64,000 nucleotides of DNA from Arthrobacter echini (GTDB lineage Bacteria; Actinomycetota; Actinomycetes; Actinomycetales; Micrococcaceae), in contig NZ_VSLD01000006.1 of assembly GCF_008107445.1 (NCBI RefSeq), positions 62,001 through 126,000 of the forward strand, written 5' to 3'. The notes under the pieces are model-generated. The model saw only the letters and a program-made list of their open reading frames with translations, did not search any database and was not told the origin of the DNA. This document shows, piece after piece, positions 1,022 to 49,422 of this stretch. How positions within the stretch are numbered: position 1 is the stretch's first letter; the number at the start of each line of letters is the position of its first letter. The translations under genes and the position numbers were made by a program.

Positions 1022-2035
1022 ATGGCAGCTGTGGAAGAACTGCGTGTCACGAGCGGCGGTCAGCTGGGCCCCATCGATTCCTCCCGCGTCCCCCGCTATG
1101 CCGGAGCGGCCACCTTTGCCCGGCTGCCGCGGCTCGACCAGGTGGAGCACGCCGAGGTGGCCGTCGTCGGCGTCCCGTTCGACTCGGGTGTCTCCTACCG
1201 CCCGGGAGCGCGGTTCGGCGGCAATGCCATCCGCGAGGCCTCACGCCTGCTGCGTCCCTACAACCCGGCACTGGACGTCTCGCCGTTCGAGCGCGTGCAG
1301 GTGGCCGACGCCGGGGACATGGCGGTCAATCCGTTCAACATCGGCGAGGCCATCGAGACGGTGCAGCAGAACGCGCTGGATCTCACCGCGAACGGCACGC
1401 GGCTCGTGACCCTGGGCGGTGACCACACCATCGCCCTACCGCTGCTGCGGGCCGCGACCGAACGGGCCGGCTCGCCCGTGGCGATGCTCCACTTCGACGC
1501 GCACCTCGATACGTGGGACACCTACTTCGGCGCCGAGTACACCCACGGCACGCCGTTCCGCCGCGCCGTGGAGGAGGGCATCCTCGATACCGAGGCCATC
1601 TCCCACGTGGGGACGCGCGGGCCGCTCTACGGCGTCCGTGACCTCGAGGACGATCGCCGTTTCGGTTTCGGCATCGTGACGTCCTCGGACGTCTACCGCA
1701 AGGGCGTCGACGAGATCGTGGACCAGCTGCGCTCACGCATCGGCTCCAGGCCGCTGTACGTCTCGGTGGACATCGACGTCCTCGATCCCGCGCATGCCCC
1801 GGGCACCGGCACGCCCGAGGCCGGCGGCATCACGAGCCGCGAACTGCTCGAGATCCTCCGCGGCCTGCGCGGACTCAACCTCGTCGGCGCCGACGTCGTC
1901 GAGGTGGCCCCGGCCTACGACCATGCGGAGATGACCGGCGTCGCCGCGTCCCACGTGGCGTACGACCTCGTCACGCTCCTGGCGGATACCCTGACCCCAG
2001 GTACACCCGCCACCACGACCCCCGAGGACCAGTAG
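1022..2035 (+). CDS. speB: Agmatinase/guanidinobutyrase-family ureohydrolase
   Basis: A 337-residue Mn2+ ureohydrolase that cleaves a guanidino compound to an amine and urea. The metal-binding motifs are all present: GGDHT, the [10 protein letters not shown] block and [19 protein letters not shown] near the C-terminus, as in agmatinase (SpeB) and guanidinobutyrase (GbuA). The ATG at 1022 is taken as start; a TTG ten codons upstream (992) is possible, and neither has a strong ribosome site. The stop codon touches the start of the next gene (2036), so the two are translationally coupled. Pairing with a ThDP decarboxylase resembling AruI suggests the substrate is 4-guanidinobutyrate rather than agmatine; sequence alone does not settle this. 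Confidence 0.9.
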
Positions 2036-3736
2036 ATGGCCAGCATCAACAGCACCGACAGCGCAGCCTCCACCCCGCCGGCGCCCGTCACCGACCAGCG
2101 CAACGGCGGCGATCTCGTCATCGAGACCCTCACCGCGCTCGGGGCGACGACGGTGTTCGGCATTCCCGGGCAGCACGCCCTCGGTCTCTTCGACGCCCTC
2201 TCCCGCTCGGAGCTCCGCTTCGTCTCCTCACGTGTGGAGAACAACTCGGCGTTCGCGGCCGACGGCTTCTCCCGGGCCACCGGGGATGTGGGGGTGCTCT
2301 TCCTCTCGACCGGCCCCGGGGCACTCACTGCCCTCGCCGGCCTGCAGGAGGCCTACGCCACGGGCGTCCCGATGGTGGTCGTCGCCAGCCAGATCCCCCT
2401 CGAGGGCCTCGGCGCGCGGCGCAAGGGCATGCTGCACCAGCTGGATGACCAGAAGGCCTCGGCGGCGAACGTGACCAAGAGCCAGCGGCTCATCCAGCAG
2501 GCCTCCGGCATTCCCTCGGCCATCCAGGACGCCTGGACCGAGGCCGTCTCGTCGCCGCAGGGCCCGGTATGGATCGAGGTACCGCAGAACGTGCTGCTGG
2601 ATCCCGTGATGGTCCCGCGGGTCGAGGACGCGCTCGCTGAACCCTTCGACAATCCTCCACGGGTGGAACTCGTGCGCGAGGCGGTGGCCTGGCTGAAGGA
2701 CTCCAAGCGCCCGGCGATCGTCGCCGGCGGCGGTACGCGGCGCGGTGGAGCCGAGGCCGCGCTGCTCTCGATCGCCGAGAAGCTCGGCGCTCCCGTCATC
2801 TGCTCACCGGGCGGCAACGGCGCCTTCCCCTGGACCCACGAGCTGTCACTGCAGTCCTGGGTGGAGGACCGCCACACCACGGACGTCCTCGAGGACGCCG
2901 ACGTCCTCCTCGTGGTCGGCTCCTCACTCGGTGAGGTCACCTCCAACTACTTCACGCTCGAGCCCCGCGGCCGCATCATCCAGATCGACGCCGAACCGCG
3001 GGTCCTGGAGTCCAATCGTCCGGGGCTCGGCATCCGCGCCGACGCCGGACAGGCGCTCACGGCCCTCGACGCAGCGATCGAGCCGCTCGAGCGCGACCGC
3101 GAACCCGGGTACGACGCCGTCGCGCTCGTGGCCGCGACCCTCGCGAAGGTCGGTGCGCGTCTCGACGGGCAGGAGCTCGGCAAGGAGCGCGCGTTCATGC
3201 AGGACATCCGGGAGGCCGTGCCCGCGGGCATGCAGACCTTCTGGGACATGACCATCGCCGCCTACTGGGCCTGGAGCTGCTGGGACGCGCGTGAGGGCCA
3301 GTTCCACTCCGCGCAGGGCGCAGGCGGGCTGGGCTTCGGCTTCCCGGGCGCCATCGGCGGCTCCGTGGGCCTCGCATCCCATGACCTGCCCGCACGGGTC
3401 CTCGCCGTCTCCGGCGACGGCTCCGCCATGTACTCCATCGCAGAACTCGCCACCGCGCGACAGCACGACATCCCGGTGACCTGGCTGATCGTGGACGACG
3501 GCGGCTACGGCATCCTCCGCGAGTACATGGAGGGCGCCTTCGGCAAGGCCACGGCGACGGAACTCGCGCGGCCCGACTTCGTGGCGCTCGCGGAATCCTT
3601 CGGCGTACCGGCCCGGCGCGTGGGACCGGAGGGTATCGGTGCCGCGTTGCGCGAGTCACTCGCTGCGGAGGGCCCGAATGTCGTCGTCGTGGAGACTCTC
3701 CTGAGACTGTTCGCCCCGACGCACCTTGATCGGTAG
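2036..3736 (+). CDS. Thiamine-diphosphate-dependent enzyme, acetolactate synthase-like (possible 2-ketoarginine decarboxylase)
   Basis: A 566-residue protein with the three-domain layout of the acetolactate synthase/decarboxylase family: an N-terminal pyrimidine-binding domain (GIPGQHALGLFDAL, catalytic Glu in SSRVENNSAF), a central domain (AIVAGGGTRRGG) and a C-terminal ThDP domain (SGDGSAMYSI followed by DDGGYG). It begins on the base after the ureohydrolase stop codon. In the arginine transaminase pathway of Pseudomonas, AruI, a protein of this family and length, decarboxylates 2-ketoarginine to guanidinobutyraldehyde, and guanidinobutyrase acts two steps later. The coupling seen here fits that pathway. 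True acetolactate synthase is unlikely because no small subunit gene follows. Family certain, substrate inferred. Confidence 0.85.
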   Translation: MASINSTDSAASTPPAPVTDQRNGGDLVIETLTALGATTVFGIPGQHALGLFDALSRSELRFVSSRVENNSAFAADGFSRATGDVGVLFLSTGPGALTALAGLQEAYATGVPMVVVASQIPLEGLGARRKGMLHQLDDQKASAANVTKSQRLIQQASGIPSAIQDAWTEAVSSPQGPVWIEVPQNVLLDPVMVPRVEDALAEPFDNPPRVELVREAVAWLKDSKRPAIVAGGGTRRGGAEAALLSIAEKLGAPVICSPGGNGAFPWTHELSLQSWVEDRHTTDVLEDADVLLVVGSSLGEVTSNYFTLEPRGRIIQIDAEPRVLESNRPGLGIRADAGQALTALDAAIEPLERDREPGYDAVALVAATLAKVGARLDGQELGKERAFMQDIREAVPAGMQTFWDMTIAAYWAWSCWDAREGQFHSAQGAGGLGFGFPGAIGGSVGLASHDLPARVLAVSGDGSAMYSIAELATARQHDIPVTWLIVDDGGYGILREYMEGAFGKATATELARPDFVALAESFGVPARRVGPEGIGAALRESLAAEGPNVVVVETLLRLFAPTHLDR

Positions 3737-3897
3737 CGCAGAATCGGCAGGGGCCGGGCCCGTTCCGTTTCGTGTCATCCCGTGGCAGGGTAACGAACAC
3801 CGGGCACAGAGCCGATAGGGATGTGCGGCGCCCTGAGTACTCCGGCGTCCGGACCGGCCGATTCCCGGAGCGTGGACGAGAACAGTGGGGAGCTCCT

Positions 3898-7297: not shown

Positions 7298-8027
7298 GGT
7301 CGGCGTCTCCTTCCGCAGGGGCGCCCGAGCGGTCGAGCACGAGGAGATTGATGAACGGGGCACGCGTGCGGACCTGCCATGCGCGGCGATCGGCCACCGC
7401 GGCGCGCAGCTCGTCCGGCGTGTAGCTGCGACGGATGGAGGTGAGGCCGTCCTCGCGGATGAAGGATCCCGGCAGCGGGAGCGTGCCCACCGCGAACAGG
7501 GCGTAGCCCGCGGGATGGCGTGCGATATCGCTGTGGACCGCCACGCGGCGCGCGAGCTGTTCCGAGTCGTCGAGCAGACCCCCGAGTGCGGCGGGATCGA
7601 GGTGGTGGAGGACATGGTTCGACACCACGGCGTCGAAGGACGCACCCTCGGCCACCAGGTCCGAGCTCAGCGCCCTGCGGAAGGAGAGTCCGGGCAGCGG
7701 CGGGAGCGATGTCGCGTAGGCGTGGGCCCGCTCGTCGGGGTCGACGGCGGTCACCTCGAGCCTGAAGCCGTCGAGCTGCGCCCAGCGGCTCAGGGCCCGC
7801 GGTACGTCGCCTCCTCCCGAGCCGACGTCGAGCAGCGTGTTCACCCGGTCGCGGGAGAACACGGGGCGCAGCAGGGAGGTGTACGTGCGGCGCCAGCCCG
7901 AGACCACGGCATTGACGATCCCGAACTGGGCGTAGGTACGCTCGAGCCTGGCCGCGTCGCAGTCGGGGCGGTCCATCTCCTCGACGGCGTCGGCGTCCCG
8001 CTGGGCGAGGAACCCGCTCGACGTCAT
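7290..8027 (-). CDS. Class I SAM-dependent methyltransferase of the type III PKS operon
   Basis: A 245-residue Rossmann-fold methyltransferase. SAM-binding motif I is LLDVGSGGGD (about residues 65-75), followed by an acidic residue in AVDPDE and the motif SNHVLHHL near residue 137. It lies between and overlaps both neighbours (4 bases with the PKS, 8 with the hydroxylase), so the three genes are one transcript. It probably methylates a hydroxyl or ring carbon of the polyketide. It occupies the position of srsB in the Streptomyces phenolic-lipid operon but appears to be a soluble class I enzyme. Confidence 0.85.
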   Translation of the reverse strand: MTSSGFLAQRDADAVEEMDRPDCDAARLERTYAQFGIVNAVVSGWRRTYTSLLRPVFSRDRVNTLLDVGSGGGDVPRALSRWAQLDGFRLEVTAVDPDERAHAYATSLPPLPGLSFRRALSSDLVAEGASFDAVVSNHVLHHLDPAALGGLLDDSEQLARRVAVHSDIARHPAGYALFAVGTLPLPGSFIREDGLTSIRRSYTPDELRAAVADRRAWQVRTRAPFINLLVLDRSGAPAEGDADRA

Positions 8028-9259
8028 GCGCCCGCGTTCGTCAGGACGGGTGTCCGCTCGGCGGGGCCGGCGACGCTGCCGTCGAGGGCCGCCGCGGCAT
8101 CCGTCGTTGCCGGTGCGTCTGCCGCCTCTCGTGCGCCGAGCCGGGTCAGCAGCGCTGTCTCGACGGTCAGGCCGGGGCCGAACGCCATGGAGCAGATACG
8201 ATTGTTCCCCGCAGTGGCGGGCTGGTCCATGATGTGCTTGAGCACGAACATGACGGTCGCGCTGCTCATGTTCCCGTAGTCGCGCAGTGTCTCGCGCGCG
8301 GGCACGAGCTGCTCAGCGGTCAGTCCGAGCTTCGCCTCCACCTTGTCGAGGATGCTGCGGCCGCCGGGGTGGATGGCCCAGTGCTCGATCTCCGCGTAGT
8401 CCAGGCCCTGCAGGGACGCGTCGCGCGCCAGCAGCGGTTCCAGGGCGCCGATGATGTGTGAGTCGATGATGTGCGGCACGTAGGTACCGAGGACCATCTC
8501 GAAACCTTCGTCGCCGATGTTCCAGGCCATCGACTCCTCGCCCACGGGCGTGAGGACGGTCTCGAAGTGGTCGAGGGTCAGCGCCGGCCCCTCCAGGGGG
8601 AGATCCCGGGCGGAGACGATCGCTGCTGCGGCCCCGTCCGCGAACAGGGACGACCCCACGATCGTGTCGGGGTTGTTGGACGAGCGCACGTGCAGGGAGC
8701 ACAGTTCTGCCGAGACCACGAGGACGACGGCGTCCGGGTCGGCGTCGCAGAACGCCTTGGCGGCGCGCAGGGCAGGGAACGCGGCGTAGCAGCCCATGAA
8801 GCCGAGGTGGTAGCGCTGGACGGCCGGATCGAGATCGAGGGCGCGGACGATCTTGTAGTCCGGGCCGGGAGCGAAGAAGCCCGTGCAGGAGACCGTGACC
8901 ACGTGGGTGACGTCCGCGGCCTCGATTCCCGCAGCCGCGTCGAGTGCCTTGCGGGCCGCCTCGACGAAGAGCTTGGTGCCCTCCTGAGCGTAGAGCTCGT
9001 TGCGGGTCTTGGTGCTGGGCGTCAGGATCTGCATGTTCTGCTGGTCGAAGAAGACCGGGTGCTCGAAAGACTTCTCGACGGTGAGCTCTTCCAGGGCGGT
9101 GTAGCGGGTCTCGATCCCCGACGAATCGAAGGCGGCCCCCACGAGGCGCTTCCCGAGCCGGGTGAGATCGGGTTGGGCGGCGAAGACGTCACGGACCTGC
9201 GGCTGCACCATGATCGTGTCGGGTACAGCTGTTTCGAGGGCTCTCAGGATCACTGTCAT
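8024..9259 (-). CDS. Type III polyketide synthase (chalcone/alkylresorcinol synthase family)
   Basis: A 411-residue homodimeric-type ketosynthase that extends an acyl-CoA starter with malonyl-CoA. The catalytic triad is clear: Cys125 in VSCTGFFAPG, His297 in IHPGG and Asn330 in YGNMSSAT. The C-terminus carries about 35 extra Ala/Thr-rich residues not needed for catalysis. The ATG at 9259 starts the conserved sequence MTVILRALETAVP; an in-frame codon 12 codons upstream (GTG, 9295) is less likely. It is the first gene of a three-gene operon with a methyltransferase and an FAD hydroxylase. By analogy with srsABC the product is probably a long-chain alkyl-resorcinol, -pyrone or -quinone lipid for the membrane. 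Confidence 0.92.
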   Translation of the reverse strand: MTVILRALETAVPDTIMVQPQVRDVFAAQPDLTRLGKRLVGAAFDSSGIETRYTALEELTVEKSFEHPVFFDQQNMQILTPSTKTRNELYAQEGTKLFVEAARKALDAAAGIEAADVTHVVTVSCTGFFAPGPDYKIVRALDLDPAVQRYHLGFMGCYAAFPALRAAKAFCDADPDAVVLVVSAELCSLHVRSSNNPDTIVGSSLFADGAAAAIVSARDLPLEGPALTLDHFETVLTPVGEESMAWNIGDEGFEMVLGTYVPHIIDSHIIGALEPLLARDASLQGLDYAEIEHWAIHPGGRSILDKVEAKLGLTAEQLVPARETLRDYGNMSSATVMFVLKHIMDQPATAGNNRICSMAFGPGLTVETALLTRLGAREAADAPATTDAAAALDGSVAGPAERTPVLTNAGA

Positions 9260-9447
9260 ACACCCATTACTAGAGGACTGCCGCGACAAACACAACGAAG
9301 GCCTTCGTGCCCCGCCCCGCGGGGAGGTCCTCCGCGGTGCCTCGCTGCCGCGCGCCGTTCCCGGACCAAGCCGGGGCGGTCGATGCGACGAATCACACCC
9401 ATCACCGCCGACGGCTCAGCCGTCCTCCCGACCAGGACGGACCACCC

Positions 9448-40566: not shown

Positions 40567-41616
40567 GTGAGTGACGAGGTCGAAGCAGCAGCCACGTCCG
40601 TAGATCGTGACCGCGAACCCACGCCATCGGGACCGGCAGAGTCACCGGATGCCTCGGGTACAGCGGCCATCGAAATTGTCGGCCTGACCAAGCAGTTCAA
40701 GGACTTCACCGCCGTGGAGGAGCTGGACCTGGAGATCGGCCGCGGAGAGATCTTCGGATTCCTCGGACCCAACGGTGCCGGAAAATCCACGACCATCAGG
40801 ATGCTGCTCGATCAGTTGCGACCCTCCTCCGGATCGGCGCGGGTCCTGGGTCTCGCTGTGGGGCCGGACTCGCTCGAGATCCACCGACGCATCGGCTACA
40901 TCCCGGGCGATCTGGCGCTGTACCCGAAGCTCACCGGTATCCAGACGCTGCGGTACTTCGCACGGCTGCGCGGAAATGTGGACTGGTCCTACGTGCTGGA
41001 ACTGGCTGAACGCCTGGAAGCAGACCTCGGGAAGAAAGTGGCGGACTACTCGACCGGCAACCGGCAGAAGATCGGTCTCATCCAGGCCTTCATGCACCGC
41101 CCCGAGCTGCTCATCCTCGACGAGCCCAATGCCGGCCTCGATCCCCTCATGCAGCAGACCTTCCACGAGATGCTGCGCGAGGTACGCGCTGCCGGTCGCA
41201 CCGTCTTCCTGTCCTCCCACACCCTCTCCGAGGTGGAGCGCGTCGCGGACCGCGTCGGGATCATCCGGCGGGGGAAGCTCGTCGTCGTCGAGCGGGTGGA
41301 CGAGCTCAAGCGCAAGGCCATCCGACGCCTGGACTTCGAGTTCGACCAGCCGGTCCCGATCGACATGTTCGAGGGCGTCGCCGGTGTGCGGGACGCCGAG
41401 ATCGACGGCGTCCACGCCGGGATCGCCTACGAGGGGAGCGTCAACGACGTCCTGCAGGCGGCCCTGGTCCATGAGGTGGTCAATCTGCACTCCCGGGACG
41501 CGGATCTCGAGGAGATCTTCCTGGCCTTCTACCGTTCCGACGATTCCCCCGCCCCGTTGTCACCGGCCCGGACCGCGACAGCATCGGCGCCCAGGGCGGG
41601 ACGCCATGTTCGCTGA
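40567..41616 (+). CDS. ABC transporter ATP-binding protein
   Basis: A 349-residue ATPase of the ABC-2 exporter type (CcmA/DrrA-like). Walker A GPNGAGKST, a modified signature YSTGNRQKIG, Walker B LLILDEP and switch His in LSSHT are present. A leader of about 35 residues and a C-terminal regulatory tail (about 230-349) surround it. The start is GTG with GAGGAG upstream. It overlaps the next gene by 11 bases and forms an operon with two permease genes. Confidence 0.92.
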   Translation: MSDEVEAAATSVDRDREPTPSGPAESPDASGTAAIEIVGLTKQFKDFTAVEELDLEIGRGEIFGFLGPNGAGKSTTIRMLLDQLRPSSGSARVLGLAVGPDSLEIHRRIGYIPGDLALYPKLTGIQTLRYFARLRGNVDWSYVLELAERLEADLGKKVADYSTGNRQKIGLIQAFMHRPELLILDEPNAGLDPLMQQTFHEMLREVRAAGRTVFLSSHTLSEVERVADRVGIIRRGKLVVVERVDELKRKAIRRLDFEFDQPVPIDMFEGVAGVRDAEIDGVHAGIAYEGSVNDVLQAALVHEVVNLHSRDADLEEIFLAFYRSDDSPAPLSPARTATASAPRAGRHVR

Positions 41617-42382
41617 GGTCCTGCGGCACGAGAGTCGACAACGCGCGGTCCCGACCGGCGTCCTCGGCGGGACCCTCGCCGTCTTCACCTTCTTCGGGCT
41701 CGCCGTCTCCGGCAGCCTCGGCTCCGCCCTCGACTCCCTGACCGCCTCCATGCCCGAGGCACTGACGGCGTTCATCGGCGGCGATTCACCGGGCGGCTAC
41801 GTGGTGGGTGAGATCTTCACCCTGATGGCACCCATCGCCCTCGTCGCCTACGGCATCATCGCGGGAGCCGGCCTCTTCGCGGGGGAGGAGCGCGAGGGCA
41901 CCATGGCCGTCCTGTCGGCGCAACCGGTGACCCGGCGAAGTCTCCTCCTTGCGAAGGCCTGCAGCCTCCTCCTGAGCCTGGTCGTCATCGCCGGGCTCTT
42001 CTGGGGCGGGATGACAGTGGCCGCGCTCGTCTTCGATTCCGAGCTCACCGCAGGTGCACTGGCGGCCGGCAGCACCCATCTGGTGATGCTCGCCCTGGCC
42101 TTCGCCGCCGTGGCCCTCGCGGTCGGGGCAGCCACCGGCCGTCCCGAGCTGGCCTCCGGAACAGCAGGCGGCCTCGCGGTCATCTCCTATCTGACCTCGG
42201 CCATGCTGCCGCTCGCCGGTCTGGAGCAGTGGGCACGGCTCAGCCCGTGGCACTACGCCCTGGGCAGTGATCCGCTGCGCAACGGGATCGATCTTTCCCA
42301 CCTGGGTGCCTTCGCAGCCATCATCGTCGTCGCACTGGTCGCCGGTCTCGTCGCCGTGAACCGGCGCGACCTGAAGGGATGA
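41606..42382 (+). CDS. ABC transporter permease, ABC-2 type (first)
   Basis: A 258-residue membrane protein with six predicted helices and the loop GEEREGTMAVLSAQPVTRRSLLLAKACS typical of ABC-2 permeases. With its neighbour it forms the channel of an exporter for an unknown substrate, perhaps a lipid or drug. Overlapping starts (11 bases upstream, 4 bases downstream as ATGA) show tight coupling. Confidence 0.88.
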   Translation: MFAEVLRHESRQRAVPTGVLGGTLAVFTFFGLAVSGSLGSALDSLTASMPEALTAFIGGDSPGGYVVGEIFTLMAPIALVAYGIIAGAGLFAGEEREGTMAVLSAQPVTRRSLLLAKACSLLLSLVVIAGLFWGGMTVAALVFDSELTAGALAAGSTHLVMLALAFAAVALAVGAATGRPELASGTAGGLAVISYLTSAMLPLAGLEQWARLSPWHYALGSDPLRNGIDLSHLGAFAAIIVVALVAGLVAVNRRDLKG

Positions 42383-43260
42383 ACCTCATGACCGCAGCAC
42401 CCATCACGCCTTCCACTCGCGACAGCACCTCCGGGGGTGGTCGCGGACCGGCCCGTTCGGTCGGCAGGCACTTCGCCACGATCTGGGCCCGCGCCGTCGG
42501 CGACAAGCTGGTACTCGTATCCGTCCTGGCCGTCTACGGTCTGGTCATCGGTGCGGGAGTCGGTGCCCTCTGGCCACCTCTGCGCGATACTTTCGCAGAT
42601 CTGGCCCAGAACCTACCCGCTGCTTTCGACCAGATCCTGGGCGGGATATCACTGGCCACCCCTGAGGGCTGGCTCCACGCGGAAATGCTCTCGATCCTCG
42701 CTCCGGGCTTCCTCATCGCCGCGGCGATCATCTCCGCCGGAGCCGCGACGGCGGGTGAGGAGCAGGCTCGCACCCTCGGGCTGGTCCTGTCCTCCGGGGT
42801 GGGTCGTACCACCTTCCTCGCGGCCAAGACCGCCGCCGTGGTGACACATCTGCTGCTGGTCAGCGTCGCGATGTTCCTCGGGATGGTCATCGGCAACGCG
42901 AGCGGTGACATGGGGATCGCCATCGGAGCCCTGGCATCCTCCGCACTCTGGGTCTTCCTGTTCGGTCTGATGTATGCGGCGATAGCGCTGACCCTCGGCG
43001 CTCTCCTCGGCGACCGGCGCCTGAGCTCGGCGATCACCGCAGGGATCGCGGCCGTCTCGTTCGTCCTCGCGACCTTCCTGCCGCTGAACGATGCGCTGAC
43101 CGGGTGGGCCAAGGTCAATCTCTGGTATCCCTACAGCGGAAACGTGCCGGTGGTCGACGGCATCGACGGCGGACTGGCTGCGGTCATGGTCGGTATCGCC
43201 GTCGTGGTCGCCCTTGTCGGCCTCGTCGGTTTCCGCCGCCGCGCCGACCTCCGCGGTTGA
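42379..43260 (+). CDS. ABC transporter permease, ABC-2 type (second)
   Basis: A 293-residue membrane protein with six helices and the counterpart loop TAGEEQARTLGLVLSSGVGRTTFLAAKTAA. About 35 polar residues precede the first helix. It completes the exporter with the ATPase and first permease; ATGA overlap with the latter. The cardiolipin-synthase-like gene follows directly, which may hint at a membrane-lipid theme. Confidence 0.88.
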   Translation: MNLMTAAPITPSTRDSTSGGGRGPARSVGRHFATIWARAVGDKLVLVSVLAVYGLVIGAGVGALWPPLRDTFADLAQNLPAAFDQILGGISLATPEGWLHAEMLSILAPGFLIAAAIISAGAATAGEEQARTLGLVLSSGVGRTTFLAAKTAAVVTHLLLVSVAMFLGMVIGNASGDMGIAIGALASSALWVFLFGLMYAAIALTLGALLGDRRLSSAITAGIAAVSFVLATFLPLNDALTGWAKVNLWYPYSGNVPVVDGIDGGLAAVMVGIAVVVALVGLVGFRRRADLRG

Positions 43261-43282
43261 GGCCCGGCGCGGTGTCCGCCGG

Positions 43283-44506
43283 ATGATCCGCGATGTGACG
43301 GGACTGGCCGTCGTCCTGGGCGCGATCCTCCTGGTCCTCGACCTCGCCCTGCGTATCGGTGCGCTGATCACCTTCCCGCAGGGGCGCAGACCGACTGCAG
43401 CCATGGCCTGGCTCCTGGCGATCTTCTTCATCCCGGTGATCGGCACCATCGTGTTCCTGCTCATCGGGAGCCCGCACCTTCCCCGATCGCGTCGTGAGAA
43501 GCAGGCGACCATGAGCGACACCATCAGGGCCGTCGACCCGGGCGCGCTGGATCTGGTCACCGAGGCCCCGGATCCGCCGTGGATCCGCCCGGTCGTGCGC
43601 CTGAACCGACGGCTGGGCGCTATGCCCATGCTCAGGGGCAACACCACGACCCTCATCACGGGATACGCAGCGGAACTCGCCGCCCTGACGTCGGCCGTCG
43701 AGTCCGCTCGGCACTCTGTCCACCTCCAGACGTACATCCTGTCCCTCGATGAGACCACGACCGAGTTCTTCGATGCGGTGACCCGCGCCGTACGCAGGGG
43801 TGTCACGGTGAGGGTGTTGCTCGACCACATCGGGTCCTGGCGCTCTCCGAACTACCGCGCAACCATCGAGAAGCTCACGAGCGCCGGCATCGATCGGCAC
43901 CTGATGTTGCCGGTACAACCCCTCCGGGGGCGGTACCAGCGACCTGACCTCAGCAACCATCGCAAGGCGATGATCGTCGACGGCGAGAGGGCCTTCGTCG
44001 GCTCGCTCAACATCATCGACGCGAGCTACAACAAGAGGGCGAACCTGCGTCGCGGCCTCCAGTGGACGGACGTCCTGGTCGAGCTGGGCGGTCCCGTGGT
44101 GTACGGGATCGAGGCCGCCTTCCCCACCGACTGGTACAGCGAGACCGGAGACTACACCACGCCGCTGCCGATCCTGCGAGGCAGCTTCGACCTACTCATC
44201 TCGCTCTACGCCGGGCCGGTCTGGGAACACTGTCGACACTATCTCTCGTCACAGGGCAGCTTGCTGGCCAATACCAGTCACGGAGATGCCAGCCTTGCCG
44301 CACTCGATCCGGTCCTCCGGCTTGTTGCCACGGTGCACCAGCGCGACGGCGGGTACCGACTCGATACCGCGGGCCTCGACGGCTATCTCATCCCCCGACG
44401 ACCGTCGGCAGCCGACCCCGACACCATTCGTCGCCAGGGGCGGGGCATCGCCTACACCAGGACCGCTTTCGCGTACGTTTTCGAATTCGCCGGGGCTCGC
44501 CGCTGA
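43283..44506 (+). CDS. Cardiolipin synthase-like phospholipase D protein with only one clear HKD motif
   Basis: A 407-residue protein. The first 70 residues carry two membrane helices as in cardiolipin synthase (PLDNuc_N-like), followed by one PLD domain with the complete motif NHRKAMIVDGERAFVGSLN (His-x-Lys-x4-Asp). Normal cardiolipin synthases (about 480-500 residues) have a second PLD domain with a second HKD motif; here, after FPTDWYSETGDY the sequence diverges and no second motif exists in this or the other two frames. It may be a truncated or recombined copy, or a single-motif enzyme acting as a dimer. The ATG at 43283 is preferred; a TTG at 43214 would overlap the permease gene. Confidence 0.75.
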   Translation: MIRDVTGLAVVLGAILLVLDLALRIGALITFPQGRRPTAAMAWLLAIFFIPVIGTIVFLLIGSPHLPRSRREKQATMSDTIRAVDPGALDLVTEAPDPPWIRPVVRLNRRLGAMPMLRGNTTTLITGYAAELAALTSAVESARHSVHLQTYILSLDETTTEFFDAVTRAVRRGVTVRVLLDHIGSWRSPNYRATIEKLTSAGIDRHLMLPVQPLRGRYQRPDLSNHRKAMIVDGERAFVGSLNIIDASYNKRANLRRGLQWTDVLVELGGPVVYGIEAAFPTDWYSETGDYTTPLPILRGSFDLLISLYAGPVWEHCRHYLSSQGSLLANTSHGDASLAALDPVLRLVATVHQRDGGYRLDTAGLDGYLIPRRPSAADPDTIRRQGRGIAYTRTAFAYVFEFAGARR

Positions 44507-44667
44507 TTCATGGCCCACGACTGCACCTCTCTGGAGTAGCTCCCCGCCCTCATAGGGCAAGCACCCGACCGGTTCGTGCTCGTCGAGGCATTCCAGGACG
44601 ACGCCCCCGCCGAAGCAAGTGGTGTGCACAATTGCGCATCTTCTTGTTCCTGCGTAGCGTCTGCCAC

Positions 44668-44816
44668 ATGGATGGCGGCAAGGAACCAGAGCAGACGTCG
44701 GCCGGCCGTCCCGAAGGCACGGGTAGGGTGTTCTTTCCATTGGTATCGTATTCCTTGTCGTCGCAATTTCGATAATGTTTTCGGGAACGACGTTCTGGGC
44801 TGCCTTTTTACCGTGA
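44668..44816 (+). pseudogene. Possible frameshifted small membrane protein
   Basis: Reading from the ATG at 44668 gives MDGGKEPEQTSAGRPEGTGRVFFP, a plausible polar N-terminus; from about 44732 the next frame gives a clean membrane helix (SIGIVFLVVAISIMFSG) ending in TTFWAAFLP and a stop at 44816. Joined across one missing base near 44731, the two halves make a sensible 49-residue single-helix membrane protein. Either the gene is broken or there is a sequencing error. Confidence 0.35.
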
Positions 44817-45011
44817 GCATCACGTTCCTCATCCTTGGGCTACAAAAGCCTTCAAGCAAGGGTGAGCCCCCATCCGGCTGGACTTCGCAGGGCCGACTGT
44901 AAGTGGCGTATCCAGAGAGTCGATCTGCCACCGCCGGAGATCGGCGGCAAACCACTGCAAACACCACGTGCTCTCCTCCTGTGATGCAGAAGGCGGGTGT
45001 AGATCGCTCTG

Positions 45012-45046
45012 CCAATCAGCCGCGCTCAGCTTCATTGGCTGACTGG
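45012..45046. repeat. Inverted repeat upstream of heliorhodopsin
   Basis: CCAATCAGCC (45012-45021) and GGCTGACTGG (45037-45046) are complementary except at one position. An overlapping GCCAAT (45011-45016) / ATTGGC (45034-45039) pairing is also possible. It lies 143 bases before the heliorhodopsin start and could be an operator or a leader hairpin. Confidence 0.4.
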
Positions 45047-45188
45047 GTGAGTTCTTCGGTCGCGCCGGAAGGCAATGCAGAGCGGGTCTCGGTACTCGAA
45101 ACAGCCGGCGAATTTACCGCCAGGAAATGTCGCGGTCCGGAGTCCGATCCGGTATCACATTCGATCCAATGGTGACACAATCTTATTC

Positions 45189-46034
45189 ATGAGTGTTTCT
45201 CCTTTGGAGCTGCAGACCACGTCCGTGCAGATAGCGTTCCGCACGGCCACACGGTTGCGGGTCTTCAACGCTGTCATGGGGTTTCTTCATCTGGCCTCGG
45301 GATCACTCATGGTGGCGCTCAGTAACGACTTCTCCCTACCGGTGTCGACGTTCGCGTTGAACGGCACCCCAGGGACATCCTTGTCGCAGGGTGTCACCAA
45401 TCTCGTCTTCGATGTGCCTCTGGGCATCGCGACGGCATCTTTCCTGTTCCTGTCTGCCTTCTTCCACTTCCTGATCGCCTCACCCATCGGTTTCCACCGC
45501 TACATCGGGGAGCTCTCCAGAGGACGTAATCGTTTCCGGTGGGTTGAGTACAGTGTGTCCTCCACGCTCATGATCGTGCTCATCAGCCTGATTCTGGGGA
45601 TCTCGGACATAGCAGCACTCATCGGTCTGGGTATCGCCAACATCTCGATGATCCTCTTCGGATGGCTGATGGAGATGACGAACAACGGACTCATGCACGA
45701 CGCGGACGGACGCCCACAACGCGGGCAGCGCGCCTGGTGGACGCCCTTCTGGTTCGGCTGCGTTGCCGGCATCGGCCCGTGGCTGGCCGTGGCGGTCTAC
45801 CTGATCGTCAATGTCGGCGTCGAGGGTGGGGAAGGGCCCCCGGGATTCGTGTACGGCATCATCATCTCGCTGTTCGTCTTCTTCAACAGCTTCGCGATCA
45901 ACCAGTGGCTCCAGTACAAGCAGGTCGGCCGCTGGAGGAACTACCTCACCGGCGAACGGACCTACATCGTGCTCAGCCTCATCGCCAAGACCCTCCTGGC
46001 ATGGCAGGTCTTCGCCAACGTACTGATCGGCTAG
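45189..46034 (+). CDS. heR: Heliorhodopsin
   Basis: A 281-residue seven-helix membrane protein of the heliorhodopsin family. The retinal Schiff-base lysine is Lys267 in helix 7 (VLSLIAKTLLAWQ), with Ser263 four residues before it; the counterion Glu120 is in RWVEYSVSS of helix 3; and the two conserved histidines are His34 (FLHLASG) and His93 (FFHFLIA). FGWLMEM, PFWFGCVAGIGPW and GFVYGIIISLFVFFNSFA also match heliorhodopsin 48C12. Proteins of this family sit with the N-terminus inside the cell, absorb green light and have a slow photocycle without ion pumping in most cases. The ATG at 45189 is the only start giving the full family; it has no good ribosome site. It is transcribed alone, convergent with an acetyltransferase gene. 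Retinal would have to come from genes elsewhere. Confidence 0.96.
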   Translation: MSVSPLELQTTSVQIAFRTATRLRVFNAVMGFLHLASGSLMVALSNDFSLPVSTFALNGTPGTSLSQGVTNLVFDVPLGIATASFLFLSAFFHFLIASPIGFHRYIGELSRGRNRFRWVEYSVSSTLMIVLISLILGISDIAALIGLGIANISMILFGWLMEMTNNGLMHDADGRPQRGQRAWWTPFWFGCVAGIGPWLAVAVYLIVNVGVEGGEGPPGFVYGIIISLFVFFNSFAINQWLQYKQVGRWRNYLTGERTYIVLSLIAKTLLAWQVFANVLIG

Positions 46035-46073
46035 GACAAGCGAGCACGTTGTGTCTCAGTCGACCGAGACCGA

Positions 46074-47790: not shown

Positions 47791-48071
47791 TGCATCGAAC
47801 CGGCCTGGGCTGGTCCGGGAAGCGGTGGTCACCGGGGGGTGACAAGCTCCATTCAGGCGATGGGGTCGGTTGGCGTGTTCATGACGGTCCCGCATCCGAT
47901 GCCGATACTCTGGTGGTACTACCCGAGCCAGCGGGGTTGCTCAGGGCCGTGGACGGGTTTCTTCGCGGCCGTCGTCGGTGCTGTGTTTCTGACGATACGA
48001 GGCGAAGCGATGGAGCGCCGTCAGCCATCGAGTGCCTTTGTGATCGTCGTGTCTAGGTGAAGGTGTCGTGC

Positions 48072-48614
48072 ATGCCTGAAGAAAGTTCCCCACTGACGGG
48101 GGTCAGCTCGTTCGCCGACGACTATCGGATCGAGCTGATGGAACCACGTGCTGTCTCCGTATCCATGCGTCATCCACTCCACCTCGACCGTGAGGCCGCC
48201 CAGCGGATGCTGCAGGGCAGCTTCGACGTCGCGCACGGACTCCGATACGTGGTGGTGGTCGACATGGCCGGCCTACTGGGAATCTCGGCTGAGGCACGGC
48301 GAGTCATGTCCTCGGCCCGCAACATCCTGGCCGCAGCGATGTTCGGGGATTCCCCCATGGACAGAGTCCTGGCAGCCGCCTATGCACGGGCGCCGTACCC
48401 GTGTGAGTACTTCCCTGATCGTCAGCAGGCACTGGGGTGGCTACTGGGGCACGATCCCCACTGTGAGGACATCCATGAATTACATCGCGAGCGTCACTGT
48501 CGCCCTGTGTCCTCCGAGGAGTCCCGTCACCGGTTCGGGGTCGTCGAGGAGCATGCACGGACCCCTCACAGGGCGTCGGAGCGGCCGCCGGGTCCACGAC
48601 ACTCCGACCCGTAG
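48072..48614 (+). CDS. STAS/SpoIIAA-like protein of unknown role
   Basis: A 180-residue protein whose first 120 residues alternate strands and helices in the manner of STAS-like (DUF7793-type) domains: VSVSMRHPLHLDREAAQRML, YVVVVDMAGLLGISAEARRVM, then PYPCEYFPDRQQALGWLLGH. These are small cytosolic proteins, probably regulatory. The C-terminal 60 residues are Arg/His/Pro-rich and unlike a folded domain, possibly an extension from a lost stop codon. The ATG at 48072 follows GAAGGTG; a GTG at 48057 is possible. It converges with the GAF-protein gene. Confidence 0.6.
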   Translation: MPEESSPLTGVSSFADDYRIELMEPRAVSVSMRHPLHLDREAAQRMLQGSFDVAHGLRYVVVVDMAGLLGISAEARRVMSSARNILAAAMFGDSPMDRVLAAAYARAPYPCEYFPDRQQALGWLLGHDPHCEDIHELHRERHCRPVSSEESRHRFGVVEEHARTPHRASERPPGPRHSDP

Positions 48615-48676: not shown

Positions 48677-49264
48677 CTATTCGACGACCGGTGGTGTGTT
48701 CAGTTCGAGTTCGGCCTGGGCAGCCAGGGAGCGGAGCACCCGCTGGTCCTCGGCGGTGAAGGCACGCGGCCGCTGGTCGATCACGCACAGCGTGCCGATG
48801 AGCCAGCCACCGGGTCCACGCAGTGGGCATCCGGCATAGAACCGTATGCGCGGATCTCCCGTGACGAGTGCGTTGGCACTGAAGCGCGGATCCTCGTGCG
48901 TGTCCTCGACGACGAGGAGATGCTCGTCCTGGATCGTCACGTTACACAGCGCATCACCACGGTCCACGCTCCGGGACAGAGGGCCGGTCACTGAGAACAG
49001 GATCTGCTGGTCGGCGGTGATCACGCCGATACTGGCCGAGCTCACCTCGAAGATCTCACGCGCATAGCGGACGATCCGGTCGAAGCGTTCCGCATCCTGT
49101 ACCTCCAGGATCCGCGATCGTGCGACGGAGAGCAGGCGCAACTTCTCCGCCTCCGACCGGGCGCCGCGGCCGCCGCCAGGCGGGAGCGCTGTACCGGGAT
49201 TGTCCCCGGCGACCGCATCATCGCCACGGCCAACCTCACTGGAGGGTGTCCTCGCTGATTTCAT
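48677..49264 (-). CDS. GAF-domain protein
   Basis: A 195-residue protein with a Gly/Ala-rich leader of about 40 residues and a single GAF domain (about 50-190): RILEVQDAERFDRIVRYAREIFEVSSASIGVITADQQILFSVTG, then a Cys in DALCNVTI and FYAGCPLRGPGGWLIGTLCVID. It resembles GAF sensors of the free-Met-sulfoxide-reductase/phytochrome superfamily. It lacks an output domain, so it may sense a ligand or light and pass the signal by protein contact, perhaps to the STAS-like neighbour. The exact start is uncertain (ATGs at 49264 and 49285, GTG at 49348). Confidence 0.78.
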   Translation of the reverse strand: MKSARTPSSEVGRGDDAVAGDNPGTALPPGGGRGARSEAEKLRLLSVARSRILEVQDAERFDRIVRYAREIFEVSSASIGVITADQQILFSVTGPLSRSVDRGDALCNVTIQDEHLLVVEDTHEDPRFSANALVTGDPRIRFYAGCPLRGPGGWLIGTLCVIDQRPRAFTAEDQRVLRSLAAQAELELNTPPVVE

Positions 49265-49422
49265 CGTCGTCTCAGGTCCTGGCATACGAGTGGTGGCGAG
49301 GGCGTCGGCTGTTCCCCCAATGGTCTTCGACGTTACGGCACCCACCACGACCGAGCCGGTAACCGGGGGTGTCGGCTATGTCACGACGGAGCACGGGAGC
49401 AGATCGGAGCACCCCGGCACGG

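Follow-up and report, generated by a model that had tools for sequence, protein, structure and literature searches.

The heliorhodopsin gene and its product

The window (the whole 64,000-nucleotide stretch of DNA analysed here) carries at 45189..46034 on the forward strand, stop codon included, a gene for a heliorhodopsin (HeR) of 281 amino acids, whose reading frame is free of inner stops in translation. Upstream on the same strand lie genes for an ABC ATPase, two ABC-2 permeases and a PLD-family, cardiolipin-synthase-like protein (43256..44506, start codon uncertain; assigned by Pfam and NCBIfam), the last of these separated from the HeR gene by a gap of 682 bp. The ATG chosen as the HeR start is backed by the alike N-termini (MSxxPLxL-like) of close relatives, and a longer open reading frame starting at 45075 is an open-frame extension.

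The preliminary description, which had the sequence alone to go on, had called the gene a heliorhodopsin, and the profile searches bear this out: the protein matches Pfam PF18761 with E 4.1e-95 (318 bits; cut-off 26.7) and the HeR family NF038020 of NCBIfam with E 1.1e-90 (303.5 bits; cut-off 100), and a phmmer search against the PDB returned the entries of heliorhodopsin 48C12 at E about 2e-72. We aligned the protein with 95 loci and the 48C12 stretch (97 rows in all, after 8 of 103 loci, namely L001, L009, L011, L096, L097, L099, L100 and L102, had been dropped as duplicates or fragments). In this alignment the Schiff-base lysine K267 (codon 45987..45989, forward strand) corresponds to K241 of 48C12, S263 to S237, E120 to E107 and H93 to H80, and all four are invariant (97/97 rows); H34, which corresponds to H23, is kept in 96 of the 97 and missing from L008. 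The signature residues are thus intact and aligned as had been claimed. Together with L009, L008 represents a second HeR copy in a genome of the host's genus (G014:C18:46862-47589), broken into two frames that cover profile positions 1-39 and 38-242, which is either a decaying gene or a sequencing error.

By sequence and by alignment to 48C12, helix 3 holds an ESL motif at E120, S124 and L131, in which we take the second and third positions to fall at +4 and +11, and helix 7 holds the SxxxK motif formed by S263 and K267. Both motifs are given for heliorhodopsins in the available portion of PMC9601134. An AlphaFold2 model (44-row alignment; pLDDT 84.4) shows seven long helices, the first two of them joined by a hairpin, and in a Foldseek search with it the top places went to ten HeR chains (E from 7e-21 up to 2.4e-17), with 48C12 (6su3) as the best match at TM 0.83/0.90, type-1 rhodopsins appearing only from E 1.2e-4. 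The protein thus resembles 48C12 (PDB 6su3, 6uh3) in fold, pocket residues and SxxxK, at 47-49% identity in structural alignment. Lysine and arginine are absent from each modelled extracellular loop and number 3, 3 and 2 in intracellular loops 1 to 3; the N-terminal tail has none in residues 1-16 and three in residues 17-24. In the model this charge pattern is, on balance, what a protein with its N-terminus inside would show.

Omega between the window gene and that of Arthrobacter sp. H5 is 0.089 by NG86 and 0.060 by YN00, and it stays at or below 0.12 in all nine pairs computed (NG86); judged from these substitution rates, the gene is under purifying selection and the protein has been kept working. 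Taken on its sequence, the protein is a genuine type-3 rhodopsin, ordinary and well-formed by the measure of its family. That family is already known, and the window protein is a further member of it; the setting is more interesting than the family call, in that the gene is mobile and conserved, has a distinctive loop and sits in a host with no detected chromophore route.

The helix 4-5 loop and the spread of the gene

Intracellular loop 2, between helices 4 and 5 (residues 165-185; 45681..45743, forward strand), is longer than in 48C12, as the preliminary description had noted: the spacing from counterion glutamate to Schiff-base lysine is 147 residues, compared with 134 in 48C12, and the loop bears the motif NNGLMH...RGxRAWW. 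In a 96-row tree (the alignment rows less L008; quick method, SH-aLRT only), the HeRs of the window and of Arthrobacter sp. H5 fall in a 19-row clade with support 99. Throughout this clade NNGLM (165-169) is exact (19/19), as are R178 and G179 (19/19), and H170 is kept in 18 of 19. Of the 78 rows outside it, 77 have gaps all along alignment columns 167-172, and the remaining one, L086, has two residues there. A short insert of another kind, lying within 173-177, occurs in four rows (L046, L047, L057, L062). AlphaFold2 models the region of the insert with low confidence (low pLDDT), and on alignment and modelled topology the insert is clade-specific and cytoplasmic. That the loop would also be more charged than that of 48C12 proved a lesser feature (3 K/R and 2 D/E in residues 165-185); the loop is set apart by its conserved, clade-specific motif.

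The loop had further been put forward as a possible partner-binding site, which is plausible and is strengthened by the conservation of the insert, though the insert could stabilise the protein instead. For the heliorhodopsin of O. cerasi (OcHeR), charged and aromatic residues in loops 1-3 are proposed to bind a partner, according to the part of PMC11109279 at hand. The presumed counterion of OcHeR, E118, lies 134 residues from K252, the spacing of 48C12, and OcHeR therefore has no such insert. At about 21 residues, the window loop should not be the one described by Bulzu et al., as far as the accessible text of that work goes. Among the matches listed for HeR in Arthrobacter, Dietzia, Nesterenkonia, Micrococcaceae and Tessaracoccus in the literature, we saw no description of the insert-bearing clade.

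The clade spans at least five actinobacterial families (Micrococcaceae, Dietziaceae, Propionibacteriaceae, Ornithinimicrobiaceae and Intrasporangiaceae/Dermatophilaceae), with hosts including Arthrobacter sp. H5, Dietzia alimentaria, Tessaracoccus antarcticus, Nesterenkonia, Terrabacter, Humibacillus, Ornithinimicrobium, Phycicoccus and others. Its members (L010-L026, L095) are 72-90% identical to the window protein (L025, 69%), share its insert and, like it, end a run of genes on one strand; they differ from it mostly in their neighbours. The nearest tree rows after H5 belong to Dietzia (87% identity) and to Propionibacteriaceae. The Dietzia gene (L010; NZ_AGFF01000031.1, Dietzia alimentaria 72), whose product is the one 87% identical, follows a gene for a heavy-metal P-type ATPase at a distance of 121 bp. 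The Mycobacteriales, to which Dietziaceae belong, possess an outer layer of mycolic acids; provided that the contig does come from Dietzia, this HeR bears on the claim that heliorhodopsins are confined to monoderms.

The host had been described as Micrococcaceae-like, which agrees with its sharing a genus with Arthrobacter sp. H5 (G017, whose locus L003 opens with a stretch that occurs exactly in NZ_KI914985.1 of that strain). Within that genus HeR occurs in 6 of 38 genomes, and across the sampled family it is found above cut-off in 19 of 395 (G284 matched below cut-off and is uncounted). The four other HeR-bearing genomes of the genus (L002, L004-L007) carry a different HeR lineage, at about 47-48% identity to the window protein, and the presence of two lineages in one genus implies that HeR was gained at least twice or that one or the other was selectively lost. 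Two species of the genus, G023 (L004) and G032 (L005), have identical HeR proteins of the other lineage, and the HeR gene of G032 adjoins genes for a serine resolvase and an M48 peptidase. A serine resolvase also lies about 1 kb downstream of the H5 HeR (L011).

At the locus itself, a block consisting of the PLD gene, the 682-bp gap and the HeR gene (43262..46055) is missing from a sister species (G034; locus L160), whose alpha/beta hydrolase is 94% identical and which has no HeR: the same locus is present there with the ABC exporter, GNAT and hydrolase genes, but PLD and HeR are replaced by 77 unaligned bp, the blastn match breaking off at 43261/6902 (window/sister) and resuming at 46056/6980. 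In another genome, G010, the ABC block is missing as well, and these differences together mark the spot as one of turnover. The two ends of the block carry no repeat, direct or inverted, of at least 8 bp, so its borders do not decide between insertion here and loss in the sister species. In 150-bp bins, GC is mostly 0.54-0.62 over the gap and the HeR gene (one bin reaches 0.67), compared with 0.62-0.73 around them. On the evidence of the tree, the sister locus and the nearby serine resolvases, all of it comparative, the HeR gene appears to move between actinobacteria. Among 72,556 plasmid records HeR was found on two, both distant (from Chloroflexota at 44.4% and from Lactococcus petauri at 43.0%), the latter being a plasmid of 10.5 kb (NZ_CP141705.1) with a 43% identical HeR and with Ictalurus sp., cell culture, as its source; the 50,697 phage records held no match, and a pattern that sees close relatives only had no match in viral contigs.

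Genomic neighbourhood and upstream region

In the window, no same-strand gene lies within the 682 bp upstream of HeR or directly downstream of it. We compared neighbours across the window and 24 loci (L002-L008, L010-L026), with gene picks that rest on codon-position GC and not on a trained gene finder; 16 of 18 clade loci could be parsed in this way, L015 and L023 having no HeR among the crude picks. The gene after HeR is convergent in all 16, its reading frame overlapping HeR, and perhaps spurious, in L017 and L026. In 12 of the 16 a same-strand reading frame lies upstream, at distances from a 77-bp overlap to 355 bp and in several cases within 23-55 bp, so that HeR may there close a short operon. 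Recurring neighbour families stay inside host groups (three Propionibacteriaceae loci; two Nesterenkonia; Phycicoccus/Dermatophilaceae; pairs within the genus of the window host), and just two cross family lines: an ABC ATPase with a permease, which the window has in common with L017, and a gene family (F8) found 3-6 kb from HeR in L017, L020 and L023.

An operon partner for HeR was rejected as a candidate, given upstream genes that mostly differ between families and a downstream gene that is convergent in every parsed locus. So was the downstream alpha/beta hydrolase, from which HeR is separated by a GNAT gene on the other strand. Homologues of this hydrolase occur in 38 of 38 genomes of the genus, compared with 6 for HeR. 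Alpha/beta hydrolases form one of ten groups of HeR neighbours, and 38.6% of the HeRs surveyed had a co-transcribed neighbour, in the section of PMC11109279 available to us. The preliminary description had held that each new genomic context is informative for a family with no settled function; this hardly holds here, where neighbours mostly change by family, where none of the 16 loci has a same-strand gene directly downstream and where the sister species keeps the locus without HeR and PLD, the one exception being the ABC exporter in Ornithinimicrobium laminariae. Elsewhere in the window we observed a type III polyketide synthase of the chalcone/stilbene synthase family (8024-9295, reverse strand) and, near the HeR locus, a DUF7793 protein (48057-48614, forward strand) and a GAF-domain protein (48677-49348, reverse strand), neither of the latter two linked to HeR by any evidence.

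Directly before the gene, 7 nt upstream of the ATG, lies a putative extended -10 element, TGA-CACAAT (45173..45181, forward strand). The pattern TGN-NAnn(C/A)T followed by 4-8 bases and ATG occurs in 11 of the 19 clade members, with spacings of 5-7, and is missing in 8; it occurs in 1 of 76 other HeRs and in 36 of 7856 ATG/GTG contexts on the plus strand of the 18 clade loci, a contrast that is descriptive, as we settled on the pattern with the sequences already in view and the clade members are related. Shine-Dalgarno-like words precede 4 of 19 clade members vs. 22 of 76 other HeRs. The motif suggests leaderless transcription, and HeR is probably transcribed from its own promoter.

Retinal supply and candidate modes of action

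The preliminary description had proposed a search of the whole genome for blh/brp and crtY or other carotenoid genes, which came out negative for blh and crtY and puts the source of retinal at the centre. In the genome of the host, a soil-type actinobacterium (3.16 Mb in 42 contigs, the window being 62001-126000 of contig C39; completeness 100, contamination 0.15), profile searches found neither Blh/Brp (PF15461) nor an RPE65-type oxygenase (PF03055). The lycopene-cyclase domain TIGR03462 was likewise absent (with a positive C. glutamicum control), and the CrtY type (PF05834) gave no more than five matches below cut-off, each spanning 35-49 positions where the profile begins. Control genomes were positive for PF03055, PF05834 and TIGR03462; for PF15461 the controls gave 0/14, and Tessaracoccus antarcticus (G396) served instead, its match at E 2.8e-69 showing that the search is able to see Blh. 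In Arthrobacter sp. H5 (G017), the closest named relative, neither Blh, RPE65 nor the TIGR03462 cyclase was detected.

These absences extend to other hosts. PF15461 was above cut-off in none of the 395 family genomes (G142 had one sub-cut-off match) and in only one, G396, of 68 HeR-bearing genomes. PF03055 had matches in 28 of 67 HeR-bearing genomes; of the 19 belonging to the family, G220 alone had one, so that 18 of these 19 lack both cleavage families; an RPE65-family match alone does not mean that retinal is formed. TIGR03462 was present in 22 of 67, including 12 of the 18 family members with a completeness rating of 90% or more, and several HeR hosts of the family therefore carry this type of cyclase while lacking a cleavage enzyme. 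Among the insert-bearing clade, one or other cleavage family occurs in 4 of 19 genomes (G395, G396, G399, G400), from Tessaracoccus, Dietzia, Terrabacter and Humibacillus, with G406 represented by its twin G216 in the PF03055 search. The HeR-bearing set, which 49 of 80 loci from the search for HeR relatives entered (L011 was left out, being G017), numbers 68 for PF15461 and 67 for PF03055 and TIGR03462, and some genomes were reached twice: G307/G403, G301/G405 and G344/G408 have identical TIGR03462 match places, and G216 and G406, the latter in the PF15461 set only, were judged the same from identical HeR proteins and agreeing sizes.

By Pfam, contig C15 of the host carries a polyprenyl synthetase, a phytoene synthase, an amine oxidase and a NUDIX gene, a cluster that looks crtE-crtB-crtI-like with an idi-like NUDIX gene, adjoining what look like rpoB and rpoC. 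Given this cluster and no later step among the families searched, lycopene should be reached and retinal by no known step. What is absent is the known families of enzymes, and scavenging of retinal is therefore a proposal.

The reading we place first, just short of calling it probable, is that of a mobile sensory HeR with its own promoter and scavenged retinal, signalling through its cytoplasmic loops to an unlinked partner. The extended -10 promoter would start the message at or next to the ATG, without a leader, and the opsin would insert with its N-terminus inside. Retinal would be picked up from outside, from phototrophic or retinal-making neighbours, and joined to Lys267 as a Schiff base whose counterion would be Glu120; light would then start a slow, non-pumping photocycle. 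The signal would leave by the positively charged cytoplasmic loops, above all by the helix 4-5 loop with its conserved NNGLMH...RGxRAWW motif, and reach a partner that these hosts share and whose gene lies elsewhere, making HeR a light switch active only where retinal is available. A bolder version, which we regard as doubtful, takes the whole insert-bearing clade for a solo gene spreading through actinobacteria as a light-AND-neighbour sensor, which in a host unable to make retinal would be armed only by that of others and whose NNGLMH loop would address a housekeeping protein common to the hosts.

Rhodopsin hosts that lack the known genes for retinal have precedents. In Rhodoluna and Aquiluna, rhodopsins, HeR included, mostly occur without blh, and a reliance on outside retinal is proposed; most Luna-1 genomes have rhodopsins but no blh, and 82-83% of the Rhodoluna and Aquiluna genomes keep crtB and crtY (all from the portion of PMC12422013 at hand). 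In the window host, by contrast, neither of the two lycopene cyclase families tested was detected. The strongest competitor, though an unlikely one, is that the host makes its retinal by an undescribed pathway, leaving HeR self-sufficient. The actinobacterium Aurantimicrobium minutum has neither blh nor diox1, yet it makes endogenous retinal and has a working rhodopsin, and our host carries carotenoid precursor genes; A. minutum, however, has putative C50 cyclase genes, crtYe/Yf (both points from the accessible text of PMC7734400). With no lycopene cyclase of these two families detected in the window host, no known origin can be named even for the ring of retinal. The C50 carotenoid bacterioruberin is made by pink Arthrobacter, according to the excerpt of PMC9122864 available.

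That HeR instead regulates the upstream DrrA-like ABC exporter, the PLD/cardiolipin synthase or both is, in our estimate, improbable. OcHeR sits in an operon with the multidrug ABC transporter OmrDE and up-regulates it (PMC11109279, in the part available), the exporter and PLD genes lie just upstream of the window HeR on the same strand, and PLD and HeR are missing together from the sister locus. Nor is the context wholly unlinked: in Ornithinimicrobium laminariae, of the same HeR clade, L017 positions 1249-3810 hold ABC-2 exporter genes related to those at window positions 40567-43260 (identity 72% for the ATPase, 40% for the permease); they lie upstream of HeR at about 4-7 kb, the ATPase about 4 kb away, and are read from the opposite strand. 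The ABC exporter is thus the best candidate among the neighbours. Against such regulation stand the 682-bp gap with its promoter-like element, the absence of that ABC family from the other 16 clade loci compared (by gene picks), the lack of an insert in OcHeR, and a PLD search of the fetched HeR loci that returned only the window copy and one weak 31% match (L086). The sister species keeps the exporter without HeR, and for this reason we hold the shared exporter for chance more than linkage.

A protein that works without retinal, as an apo-opsin that for instance structures membranes or handles lipids, would suit a genome with no known retinal source, but the invariance of Lys267, Ser263, Glu120 and His93 under purifying selection would be odd if retinal were never bound, and we consider it very unlikely. 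Hardly credible is a light-driven transporter like the viral V2HeR3: one viral HeR does transport protons (PMC9448325, available portion), but O. cerasi HeR showed no ion-pumping activity in the part of PMC11109279 at hand.

Heliorhodopsin function has mostly been inferred from gene neighbours. For a clade with little or no conserved neighbourhood but a conserved cytoplasmic loop, the partner of the sensory HeR proposed here could be sought with a bait instead of through an operon. As the host has no detected retinal route, effects of the holo- and the apo-protein could be separated by adding or leaving out retinal, which would make the function of a heliorhodopsin directly testable.
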